From Anaerolineales bacterium (GTDB lineage: Bacteria > Chloroflexota > Anaerolineae > Anaerolineales > Villigracilaceae): DNA of 64,000 nt. This document shows positions 4,902 through 10,563 of the stretch, in pieces. The stretch spans positions 4,145,223-4,209,222 of the forward strand of contig JABTTV010000001.1 of assembly GCA_015075725.1 (NCBI GenBank), read 5' to 3'. The stretch's first letter is position 1; every line of letters starts with the position of its first letter. The position numbers were made by a program, and so were the translations under genes. Under the pieces are notes generated by a model. The model saw nothing but the letters and a program-made list of their open reading frames with translations, was not told where the DNA came from and made no database searches.

Positions 4902-4910
4902 GGAGTGGGC

Positions 4911-6506
4911 ATGTCGTCGGAAAAATATGTGCTTGCGATCGATCTGGGGACTTCGGGACCGAAAGTTGCTTTGTTCTCATTACGCGGGGACCTGGTGGGA
5001 AGCGAGTTTCAGGAAAATCGCCTGATCCTCCTGCCCGATGGCGGCGCGGAGCAATCTCCCGCCGAATGGTGGGAGGCGATCGATACAGCCGTCAAACGAT
5101 TGCTCGGCAGGAAACTTGTACCGAATGACGACATTATCGCAATTGGAACAACAGGGCAATGGTCCGGTACTGTTGCGGTCGACAGGGATGGCAAGGCGTT
5201 GTCGAATGCGATCATCTGGATGGATTCAAGAGGCGAGCCGTATATCCGCGAGATCTGCGGGGGTGCGATCGAAGTGGAAGGGTACGAGCCGGTAAAACTT
5301 TGGAAATGGATTCGTGCCACGGGAGGTGTACCGAGCAACACCGGCAAGGATCCCATCGCGCATATCCTGTACTTCAAAAATGTTCATCCGGAAATATACG
5401 AGCGCACATATAAGTTCCTGGAACCGATCGATTACCTGGGATTGTTATTGACAGGGAAATTCGCCGCCTCAGTCAACTCGATCGTGCTGCATTGGTTGAC
5501 CGACAATCGAAACATCGACCGCATCGTTTACGACGAGAAGCTTGTTCGTTTATCGAAAATCGATCGGGGCAAACTGCCCGACCTGCGCCATGCAAATGAC
5601 ATGCTTGGCTCATTACTGCCTGCTCTTGCAGGTGAATGGGGTTTACGCGATGACGTAAAAGTGATCATCGGCTCTCCTGACGTTCACTCCGCGGCGGTCG
5701 GCTCGGGGGCGGTGGCGGATTACGATACTCACCTTTACGTCGGCACCTCAGGCTGGCTGACCTGCCACGTGCCGTTCAAGAAAACGGACATTTCCCACAG
5801 TCTTGCCGCACTTCCATCCGCCATTCCAGGCAGGTACTTGCTCACCAATGAGCAGGAGTGCGCAGGAGTGAACCTGCAATTCCTACGCGACAATTTGTTT
5901 TTATATCAGTACGAACTGTCGAACCAGAAACCCGGTCATGCCTATAAATTATTCGACGAGATCGCTGCACGGACTCCCGCCGGGAGCGGAAACTTGATCT
6001 ACACTCCCTGGCTGTACGGCGAGCGGGCTCCCGTCGACGATCGCTTCGTGCGTGGAGGTTTTTTCAACCTCTCCCTGCAAACCTCACGGGAGGACATGGT
6101 GCGAGCAGTATTCGAGGGAGTGGCTTTCAATACTCGCTGGCTCTTGAAGTATGTCGAGCAATTCATTAACAAGCCAGTTGAATATATCAACATGGTCGGG
6201 GGCGGGGCAAAGTCGGATATCTGGTGTCAGATCCACGCGGACATATTGGACCGCCCGATCCGGCAAATGAAAGATCCAATCGAAGTCAACGTGCGTGGGG
6301 CAGCTTTGCTGGCGGCGGCATCGCTGGGGCACATCCACTATGACGATATCGCTTCGCGCGTGCCGGTGGCGAAAACCTATACACCCAATCCCGACCATCG
6401 AAAGATTTACGATGAATTGTTCGGCGAGTTTTTGGCAGTGTATGAGAACAACAAGAAGGTGTATGCGAGGCTGAACAGGGGGATGGCAATGGAAAGCGGG
6501 AAGTAG
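4911..6506 (+). CDS. FGGY-family carbohydrate kinase (xylulokinase-like)
   Basis: A protein of about 531 residues. The ATG at 4911 is preferred over the GTG at 4905 because AGGAG (4901-4905) sits five bases before it. The N-terminal phosphate loop [10 protein letters not shown] lies at 9-18. The catalytic-base segment [13 protein letters not shown] is near residue 260, and the C-terminal adenosine motif [17 protein letters not shown] follows. FGGY kinases transfer the ATP phosphate to a sugar or polyol; the exact sugar cannot be read from sequence. It starts nine bases after the alcohol dehydrogenase stop and is followed 22 bases later by the PLP lyase, so the three are probably one operon. 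Confidence 0.9.
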
Positions 6507-6528
6507 AAAGAAGAAATTAAGGATATAT

Positions 6529-8031
6529 ATGAACCTCGAAGAATTATTAATGAAGAATATCGGCAAACTCCCGCCGCCGATGGTGGCATGGGCGGAGAAG
6601 CGCCTGAAGAAAATCCCATCCATCCGCCGCAAGATCGAAAAGGAATACGATGAATTAATGGGCGGGTTGGAAACATCACTGAAACCCTACAAGGATAAAT
6701 TCCCAGCCTTTGCAAGGCTGCCTGAAACAGGCCGCAGCCGCGCGGAGATTTTGCAGGAAATGGAATCGCTTCGCAAACGGGAGGAGGCGCAATGGAAGGA
6801 TGGTTTCGTCTCCGGCGCGGTCTACCACGGCGATGAAGAACACATCGAATTCTTGAACCGGGTGTACGCGATCAACTCACAGAGTAATCCCCTGCATGCG
6901 GATGTCTGGCCCAGCACGACCAAGTTCGAGGCGGAGATCGTATCCATGTGCGCAAACATGCTCGGAGGCGAAGGCCAGGCTGTGTGCGGGACCGTATCCT
7001 CAGGCGGAACGGAAAGCATCATGCTGGCGATGAAAACCTATCGCGACTGGGCACGGGACACCAGGGGAATCGCGCGTCCCGAAATGATCGCCCCTATCAC
7101 AGCTCATGCAGCATTCGACAAAGCCAGCCAGTATTTCGGGATCAAAATGGTCAAGATACCTGTGGATGCGGACTCGCGCGCCGATGTGAACGCCGCGCGA
7201 AGAGCTGTCAATCGCAACACGGTGGTCATCATGGGGTCCGCCCCCTCGTTCCCACACGGAGCCATCGACCCGATCAAGGATTTGTCCGACCTTGCGCTTA
7301 AGCATAGGGTTGGTTTTCACACGGATGCATGCCTGGGCGGGTTTGTGCTACCCTGGGCGGAGAAATTGGGCTACGCTGTCCCACCTTTTGATTTCCGCCT
7401 GCCCGGTGTGACATCCATTTCGGTGGATACGCATAAGTTCGGTTATGCCGCGAAAGGCACATCGGTGATCCTGTACCGCAACAAGGAACTGCGCCATTAT
7501 CAATATTACACAACCACCGAATGGCCCGGCGGGTTGTACTTCTCACCCACCTTTGCGGGCAGCCGGCCGGGCGCGTTGAGCGCGGCATGTTGGGCGGCGT
7601 TGACTTCCATCGGCGAACAAGGCTACATGGACGCGACAAAAAGGATTCTCGAAACCGCCGAGTATTTGAAAAATGAAGTCAGGCAAATCCCAGAATTGCG
7701 CCTGATCGGCGATTCATTCTTCGTGATCGCATTCGCGTCCGACAGCCTCGATATCTACAAAGTCCTGGAGTTTATGAGCCGCAAAAAATGGAGCTTGAAC
7801 GGATTGCACAAGCCTTCGTGCATGCACATCTGTGTGACGCTGCGACACACCCAGCCCGGCGTGAAGGAGAGCTTCATCTCCGACCTCAAGGCTGCGGTGG
7901 CGCATGTGAAAAGTCATCCCGAGGAGAAGGGGAGCATGGCGCCCGTGTATGGCATGGCATCCACCATGCCCATGCGCGGACTGGTGAGTGATATGCTAAA
8001 GAAGTATCTGGATTTGATTTTTAAAGTTTAG
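6529..8031 (+). CDS. Sphingosine-1-phosphate lyase-like PLP enzyme
   Basis: A 500-residue group II PLP decarboxylase fold, close in length to characterised bacterial S1P lyases. The signature follows the S1P-lyase (Dpl1/SGPL1) family: [59 protein letters not shown] (H264, D266) and the PLP lysine K303 in [13 protein letters not shown]. It ends AGSRPG plus a C-terminal domain. No N-terminal membrane helix is seen, unlike the eukaryotic enzyme. The family cleaves phosphorylated long-chain bases to a fatty aldehyde and phosphoethanolamine. A related amino-acid decarboxylase activity cannot be excluded by eye. Confidence 0.85.
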
Positions 8032-8140
8032 CTGTGTAAACGGCGTTGTCAAACACCAGGCTTGCCCTGAGCCTGCCTGCGAAACGAAGTGCTGACGAAA
8101 GGAAAGCGGAAACTACGACCAATCCGAAAAGAGGCGCATC

Positions 8141-9826
8141 ATGAAAAACCAATATGACCTGAAATCGGTCAACTTCCCCTACCTTGCCGGTGGAATGTTG
8201 AAATTGACCGCGTCCTTGCTTGAAGGACCGCTGCAGGGATTGTTGATTCCCAATCTGTTCGAAACCGCGGGCATTACTCACCTGCGCAAACAGCACTTTG
8301 ACGAACCGCCAACGAATCTTCCAATTCATTACACCGGGGTATTGCAAACCGACCCGGCATCCGTACCGGAGGCGCTTTGGCCTGAAAAACCATCTCAAGG
8401 CAAGGGATTTCGATTTGCATCCATCCACGATTTTGCCAAAGCCTATCGCGATGGAAGGACGACCCCGGAAGAAGTTGCAAATCGTGTGCTGGACTCCATC
8501 GAAGCCAGCGATTCGTCCAACCCGCCGATCAGGGCATTCATTGCCATCAACCGCGACAATGTGATGAAACAGGCAAGTGAATCGACTCAGCGCTTCAAGG
8601 AAGGCAGACCGCTTGGCATCTTCGACGGCGTACCCGTCGCAGTCAAAGATGAAATCGATATGACGCCCTACCCCACCACTGTGGGAACCTCGTTCCTTGG
8701 TAAGACGCCTGCAAAAGAAGACGCAACTGTTGTTGCGCGATTGCGCGCAGGGGGCGCATTGCTGATCGGCAAAACCAATATGTATGAGATCGGCATCGGC
8801 GTGACCGGGCTGAATCCGCATTACGGCACGCCGCGCAATCCCTACAACACAAACCATTACACGGGTGGTAGTTCAAGCGGATCCGCCACTGCTGTTGCCG
8901 CCGGGTTCGTTCCAGTCGCCATCGGCGCGGACGGAGGCGGCTCGATCCGCATTCCTTCGGCGTTTTGCGGACTTGTCGGCTTAAAACCCACCTTCGGCAG
9001 AGTCACCGAACACGGAGCGTACCCCCTCGACTGGAGCGTCGCTCATGTGGGACCCATCGGCGCTTCTGCCACCGATGCCGCACTGACCTATGCCATCATC
9101 GCCGGACCCGACCCGAAAGACGCAAACTCCCTGCACCAGCCGCTACCCACCCTCGAAGGCTGGGACAATCTCAATTTGAACGGGTTCAGAATCGGCATCT
9201 ATCGCCCCTGGTTCGACCATGCGGAAGAAAAGGTTGTTACCTTGTGCGATGCCATGGTCAAGAATTTCGAAGAGATGGGGTGCGAAGTAAGGGAAATCGT
9301 AATTCCCGATCTCGAAGCCAATCGTGTGGCACATTTATTCACCATTGTCAGCGAGATGCTGCAGGGTCTTGGGAAGTATTATGACAAATACCATCGCGAG
9401 CACGGAAACGATGTCCGGGTCAACCTTGCGCTGGGCCGGCAGTTCAGCGCGGACGATTATGTCAAAGCGCAGCGCATCCGCACCCGGATGATCGGTCACT
9501 TCGTGAGTGCCTTCAAAGAAGTGGATGTGATCCTTACTCCCACGACTGCCATCGCCGCGCCTGTGATCAAGAAGAGCGCCCTACCAGATGGCGATTCTGA
9601 TCTCACCGTCCTGACCGAGATCATGCGCTTCGTCACCACCGCGAACATGACGGGTCACCCCGCAATTTCCTTCCCTGTCGGTTACACTCAAATCGGATTG
9701 CCCGTTGGCATGCAAGCCATCGGTCGCGCATGGGAAGAGCATCAACTCCTCCGAATGGCGCTCGCCGCGGAACAGGTTGTCGAGCGAAAAGCGCCCCAAG
9801 TTCATTATCCGATCCTCGGTAAATAA
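8141..9826 (+). CDS. Amidase-signature enzyme, plant FAAH-like architecture
   Basis: A 561-residue amidase-signature hydrolase. The Ser-cisSer-Lys triad can be placed: K169 in VAVKDEID, the cis-Ser in TGGSSSGS (244) and the nucleophile S268 in [16 protein letters not shown]. An N-terminal extension of about 90 residues ahead of the core, with ALWPEKPS and a [16 protein letters not shown] helix, resembles plant fatty acid amide hydrolases that cleave N-acylethanolamines. That subfamily call is from memory of the pattern. It lies 109 bases after the S1P-lyase-like gene on the same strand. An ordinary amide hydrolase is the fallback call. Confidence 0.88.
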
Positions 9827-9828
9827 CC

Positions 9829-10563
9829 ATGACCCTGCAAAAAGATCCCGAAGGTTTCGAAAAAAAACATCTGGACAGCATTGTTGACCTTAATGGAAAA
9901 CGCATCATGGAGGTCGGATGCGGCGAAGGGCGTTTGACGTGGAAGTACGCCTCCGCCTCGTCCCTGACCATCGGGTTTGACCCCGACCATTCGGCCTTGC
10001 GTGTCGCCCGTGCGGATTCCTCCCCTGACCTGCACGACAAAGTCCGCTTTGCGTGTGCCAGCGCAAAAAACATTCCTTTCCGTAAAGAAACTTTCGATAT
10101 CGCCATCCTCGCCTGGTCGCTTTGATGAATGGAACACGAGAGCATGGTCCATGCTCTGAACGAAATCCATCGAATCCTAAAGCCGCGAGGCATCCTGATC
10201 GACCTGCGCCCCGTCGAGGATAATTGGTCTGTGGAGGTGGTTTCTTCGACCGGACATAGGGTCGCAGGCAAGTTAATGGATATGCCCGTCGGCATCGCAG
10301 ATGATAACGCCGCGTTCAAAGCGATGAAGGAGGTTGAAGCGCTCGGTTGGTTCTCGAAAGAAAAGGGTGACGAATTCGGTTTCTTCTACATCTGGGACAC
10401 ACCCTCCGAGATGAAGTCTTACATCGACGAGGAATGGGAGGATTTCGAAAAGCTGGACGACGACCTATACCGAAAAACAAGTTCGTTATGGGCATCGGCC
10501 AATGCCGATGCCCGGGTCCGTGTACGGGTCAAAATGTGGATTGCGGCGTGGAAGAAGCTATAA
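9829..10563 (+). CDS. SAM-dependent methyltransferase with two adjacent in-frame TGA codons (candidate selenoprotein)
   Basis: Two frames, 9829-10125 and 10129-10563, are in the same phase and separated only by TGA TGA (10123-10128). Joined, they make one class I methyltransferase of about 244 codons. Motif I EVGCGEG lies at 28-34, the acidic FDPDHS strand follows, then FDIAILAWSL, the two TGA codons (99 and 100), and MEHESMVHALNEIHRILKPRG, the usual post-motif helix and strand. The break falls inside the fold, so two independent genes are very unlikely. As I recall, homologs carry Cys-Cys after WSL. A 7-bp hairpin with loop GGTCC follows 17 bases after the second TGA. Read as Sec-Sec, the protein is intact; otherwise it is a nonsense-mutated gene. 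It begins three bases after the amidase stop. Confidence 0.75.
10139..10157 (+). promoter_or_regulatory. Candidate bacterial SECIS hairpin
   Basis: A perfect stem AGAGCAT / ATGCTCT (10139-10145 with 10151-10157) closes a five-base loop GGTCC. The loop begins 20 bases after the first in-frame TGA and 17 after the second. Bacterial SECIS elements sit directly downstream of the UGA inside the coding region and need a G-U in a small apical loop; the E. coli fdhF element, from memory, has the loop GGUCU 18 bases after its UGA. The match in position and loop is close, but the hairpin is also a plain palindrome in coding DNA, so it is only a candidate. Confidence 0.5.

Follow-up and report, generated by a model that had tools for sequence, protein, structure and literature searches.

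Comparison with described systems

A bacterial selenocysteine insertion sequence (SECIS) usually serves one UGA codon, at a set distance from it. For two consecutive selenocysteine (Sec, U) residues, the only precedent that we found in the open-access literature is the algal PDI_e with its GUGUU motif, called by its authors the first consecutive Sec-Sec protein (PMC7539508). PDI_e likewise has two Sec in a row, but it is a eukaryotic protein disulfide isomerase and is set apart by its description from the bacterial methyltransferase gene reported here, which lies at positions 9829-10563 of a 64,000-nucleotide stretch of the genome of an Anaerolineales bacterium (contig JABTTV010000001.1; the whole stretch is called the window below). 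Among methyltransferases, the double selenoprotein MduS (NF045649) likewise combines an S-adenosylmethionine (SAM) methyltransferase domain with two Sec, and is given a CxxU motif in PMC13188914. The ArsM selenoproteins and fusions (NF008823, NF041536, NF041537) are likewise class I methyltransferases with Sec replacing Cys; a 2026 inventory lists them with a UxxG motif containing one Sec, or as fusions to DUF2284/AhpD domains. That inventory covers 119 prokaryotic selenoprotein families and includes no adjacent UU, though methyltransferases (ArsM, MduS, fusions) are listed.

The window gene very probably encodes a selenoprotein in which both of two consecutive UGA codons are read as Sec; this level of confidence applies to the Sec-Sec reading and not to the substrate. 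We favor this reading because a Sec/Cys pair is conserved at the two codons, the hairpin behind them is conserved and covarying, the Sec machinery is present, and the gene is under purifying selection on both sides of the codons. The features concerned are as follows.

9829-10563, + strand: predicted coding sequence of the Sec-Sec methyltransferase, 244 amino acids with both TGA codons read as Sec (ATG at 9829, stop TAA at 10561-10563)
10123-10125, + strand: first UGA, putative Sec99; TGA or a Cys codon in 76/76 homologous loci
10126-10128, + strand: second UGA, putative Sec100; TGA or a Cys codon in 76/76 homologous loci
10139-10157, + strand: SECIS-like hairpin AGAGCAT-GGTCC-ATGCTCT, 7 bp (or 8 bp with loop GTC), with a covarying stem and a minimum free energy of -11.6 kcal/mol

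Neither the window protein nor any of ten diverse family members came close to the cut-off of a model in NCBIfam 20.0. The best model for the window protein and for most of these members was CpaM (NF043040), a corrinoid protein-associated methyltransferase, at 57.5 bits for the window protein and 45-70 for family members versus a cut-off of 180. The window protein scored 37.1 bits against MduS, over residues 5-124 only (cut-off 380), 30.3 bits against a methyltransferase/UXPK-star double selenoprotein (NF047649, cut-off 460), and 23.5 and 25.4 bits against the ArsM fusions NF041536 and NF041537 (cut-offs 575 and 510). Its best match by sequence among solved structures was the teleocidin methyltransferase TleD (PDB 5gm1; E 2.7e-12, SAM domain only), which has no Sec: the SLCH of TleD aligns with SLUU, putting Cys and His at the two Sec positions. 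The new elements would be a methyltransferase with a Sec-Sec pair and, apparently, the use of one SECIS for two UGAs in a row.

The interrupted frame and its homologues

The TGATGA at 10123-10128 shares its frame with the ATG at 9829 and the TAA at 10561-10563, such that readthrough would place UU at residues 99-100, and full-length relatives share the same readthrough reading of this frame. An earlier first-pass annotation of this DNA had described one methyltransferase interrupted by two adjacent in-frame TGA codons, and this was borne out: the joined protein matches the Pfam family Methyltransf_11 over residues 28-124, across both TGAs, at 65.7 bits versus a cut-off of 21.2. Passing this cut-off, together with a Rossmann-type fold, places the protein among the class I SAM-dependent methyltransferases.

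In 76 loci collected by protein similarity, the codon pair is TGA TGA in 55, TGA TGY in 17, TGT TGA in 2 and TGY TGY in 2; neither TAA nor TAG, nor any codon other than TGA or Cys, occurs at either position. The residues that homologues carry at codons 99-100, a comparison proposed in the first-pass annotation, are UU, UC, CU or CC in these loci and nothing else. Throughout the range of the family UU is the most frequent state, UC is far commoner than CU, and the protein tree implies at least 12 switches between states. About 36 of the 57 genomes of the genus contain a close relative, most with two internal TGA codons. The GTDB family gave 68 matches, of which 48 have two TGA, 18 have one and two have none, and in a sample of 400 Chloroflexota genomes a match at 1e-25 or better was found in 44; among the matches listed, all have one or two TGA. 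Of the soft-ligand pairs in a wide alignment, only the Sec/Cys pair is kept universally. An ArsM-like site of three Cys was also considered and is not evident, Cys31 being kept in just 85% of the rows. As a separate observation, one contig (G117, C16) has two family copies about 5 kb apart (L060 and L082), both UC and clearly different in sequence.

Between the window gene and its nearest relative, the ratio of nonsynonymous to synonymous substitution rates (dN/dS) is about 0.12 before the TGAs and about 0.15 after them, and other close pairs have similarly low values on both sides. Judged from these ratios, purifying selection acts on both halves of the gene.

The SECIS-like hairpin

The stem of the hairpin starts 10 bases after the second TGA, and its GGTCC loop lies 17 bases after the second and 20 after the first. 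The first-pass annotation had the hairpin and its loop right at 10139-10157, while its distance of seventeen bases after the second TGA is that of the loop, not of the stem. Its likening of the hairpin to a SECIS held up, both in the fit to the published model and in the covariation of the stem. The bacterial SECIS model printed in PMC13188914 constrains loop, stem, spacing and energy, and the window hairpin agrees with each constraint (loop GGTCC, 7 bp, 20 and 17 nt, -11.6 kcal/mol). Taken alone, the window sequence has an RNA folding z-score of just -2.4. Since the same TGATGA-plus-hairpin arrangement recurs in more than 100 genomes, the combination is, on this comparative evidence, not due to chance.

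A search pattern made up of WCN, a YTN codon (Leu-like), TGATGA and the core of the hairpin, run against GTDB contigs, matched at least 120 of them, with 120/120 being family members by profile. Among 67 distinct Sec rows, the stem pair at offsets 18/32 from the first TGA is A-T in 32, G-C in 33, G-T in one and mismatched in one; offset 32 is the synonymous third base of an Ala codon. In the contig set, for which the pattern left R and Y free, the stem pair forms in 113/113 distinct rows versus 79% expected. Both Cys-Cys relatives lack the hairpin and also the MVHAL peptide that it encodes. One of the CU relatives (L083) has a complete hairpin with unchanged spacing, and the other (L070) has a weakened stem.

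Selenocysteine machinery

Looking in the genome for selA, selB, selC and selD had been suggested in the first-pass annotation, and all four were found, above their cut-offs: SelA at 441 bits, SelB at 355 bits (cut-off 242), SelD at 357 bits (cut-off 125) and tRNA-Sec at 68.5 bits (gathering score 47). The same genome has two more selenoprotein genes, for SelD (L054, G000:C1:4017571-4018500) and formate dehydrogenase alpha (L220, G000:C1:3826553-3828412). Both contain a single in-frame TGA, and the hairpins behind these codons have GGTCC and GGTCT loops. The apical loop motif common to the methyltransferase, Sec-selD and Sec-fdhA hairpins is GGTC(C/T). SelA is present in 54/57 genomes of the genus. 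In the Chloroflexota sample it was found in 42/44 genomes that have the methyltransferase family versus 280/356 others (P = 0.005).

We propose that the SelA/SelB/tRNA-Sec/SelD system would translate both consecutive UGAs as Sec, with one SECIS hairpin directing both insertions, its GGUCC loop lying 20 nt after the first UGA and 17 after the second. We infer that this one hairpin may serve both UGAs and that both would be decoded efficiently.

Alternative readings

Two stops inside a domain have, in a single genome, the look of a pseudogene, and the alternative offered in the first-pass annotation was a double nonsense mutation, i.e. a decaying gene whose frame stays open by chance. Conservation across genera and phyla and purifying selection downstream exclude it: the same two codons are found in 55/76 homologous loci and at least 120 contigs, dN/dS stays at about 0.15 beyond the TGAs, and every stop codon at these positions is TGA, with no TAA or TAG. 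We therefore give a decaying pseudogene next to no credence. Equally improbable is a pair of coupled genes, with the first half ending at TGA and a second polypeptide restarting at the ATG at 10129, helped by the hairpin in reinitiation. That ATG does lie directly 3' of TGATGA in the window, but the next codon is a possible start (ATG, GTG or TTG) in just 33/76 loci and elsewhere is ATT, ATC, CTG, ACC and others, and the CC relatives read through this codon without any stop. Genome-wide reassignment of TGA (e.g. to Trp, Cys or Gly) is hardly conceivable. No point was found in its favor, the genome has a complete Sec system, and 12/31 long non-overlapping frames of the window end in TGA, in line with the earlier view that TGA is a normal stop here and a code change unlikely.

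A reading that we consider unlikely, though not to the degree of those above, takes one UGA alone as Sec, with the other read as a near-cognate Trp or Cys, or with most ribosomes stopping to leave a truncated major product. By the review of the bacterial mechanism in PMC13188914, a single hairpin shared by two UGAs would be out of the ordinary, and the excess of UC over CU (17 vs 2) suggests that Sec may matter more at position 99. Yet both positions exchange with Cys only, the CU relatives have Sec at the second site alone (L083, with its full hairpin, among them), and UU is the prevailing state throughout. Several further points weigh against reading both codons as Sec, or limit what supports it. 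On the tree the stem switched between A-T and G-C just about four times, so that the P of 2e-16 from Fisher's test for its covariation overstates the evidence, and a test on independent pairs lacked power, with significance out of reach. Coding constraint contributes to the conservation of the hairpin, because the hairpin overlaps the coding motif MVHAL, and the two effects are separated by only two Cys-Cys relatives from one clade. SelA was not found in 2/44 Chloroflexota draft genomes with the family; among draft genomes labelled non-Chloroflexi it was found in 11/15 and not in 4/15. These gaps probably reflect incompleteness or misbinned contigs. Finally, no conserved neighborhood among 120 loci supports any substrate. 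With these points counted, the Sec-Sec (UU) protein proposed in the first-pass annotation is strongly supported, as homologue states, machinery, hairpin and selection agree.

Range of the family and gene neighborhood

By their record titles, the pattern-matched contigs (at least 120) are mostly Chloroflexi/Anaerolineae, with several Acidobacteria, three Armatimonadetes and three Terrabacteria ANGP1; these taxon names are the depositors' labels. The TGATGA-plus-hairpin pattern had no match in viral_contigs. The nearest relative of the window gene, at 94% identity, is in a Candidatus Villigracilaceae metagenome-assembled genome (L003/L171). One contig carries the label Solirubrobacterales (JAUQWL010000076.1, L185). 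Over the part compared, its family gene closely resembles the Anaerolineales gene in L004/L126, and no SelA turned up in the genome to which it is assigned; for these two reasons it is probably a misbinned Anaerolineales contig.

Directly upstream of the methyltransferase gene lies:

8141-9826, + strand: amidase, separated from the methyltransferase gene by a 2-base gap; Pfam Amidase, 354 bits

The two genes are probably co-transcribed. The amidase is the last in a row of + strand genes with short gaps at 4905-9826 (FGGY carbohydrate kinase, PLP-dependent decarboxylase, amidase), a probable operon. Clustering of neighbors in 120 family loci gave an upstream amidase of this kind in 14, DUF1801 in 15, an ICMT/PEMT-type membrane methyltransferase in 10 and two groups identified by inspection, a zinc alcohol dehydrogenase-like protein in 13 and a BMP-type substrate-binding protein in 16. 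No partner runs through the family among the 120 loci, neighbors being lineage-bound only, and for this reason context assigns no function. The membrane methyltransferase lies upstream in about 10/120 loci (L126, L136, L166 and others), in some with a gap of 8-11 bases, and is a possible functional partner in its lineage.

Predicted structure and possible function

The AlphaFold2 model of the window protein is a Rossmann-type methyltransferase (predicted local distance difference test score, pLDDT, 85; predicted template modelling score, pTM, 0.83). It places residues 99-100 in the loop that follows strand 89-95 and precedes helix 103-116. A fold search aligned 195 residues of the model with 1vl5 (Z 13.4, root-mean-square deviation 6.2), and many unrelated methyltransferases came at similar Z (11-13), so that the fold gives no substrate. 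In class I methyltransferases the loop after strand beta-4 lines the substrate site beside the SAM methyl group. The -Sec-Sec- pair probably sits in this loop, where it would face the SAM methyl group. The likeliest role, itself a tentative guess, is that the vicinal selenolates might bind a soft substrate and activate it for methylation, for example a metal(loid) or a chalcogen nucleophile; the main alternative role for the pair is a redox-active diselenide acting as a redox switch.

The gene likely represents a family of bacterial selenoenzymes that is widespread and unnamed. In this family the Sec-Sec pair would be the substrate-binding or catalytic site and a single SECIS would serve two UGAs, with SelB delivering two tRNA-Sec in consecutive elongation cycles. 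In many genomes of Chloroflexota and Acidobacteriota, the annotation probably shows its members as truncated or split genes. The natural series UU, UC, CU and CC, the last with the hairpin lost, makes the handling of two consecutive UGAs by SelB directly testable. A Sec-Sec dipeptide at the active site of a methyltransferase would be new chemistry. Speculatively, should the enzyme act on a metal(loid) or chalcogen, it may be of importance in the environmental cycling of arsenic, mercury, tellurium or selenium.
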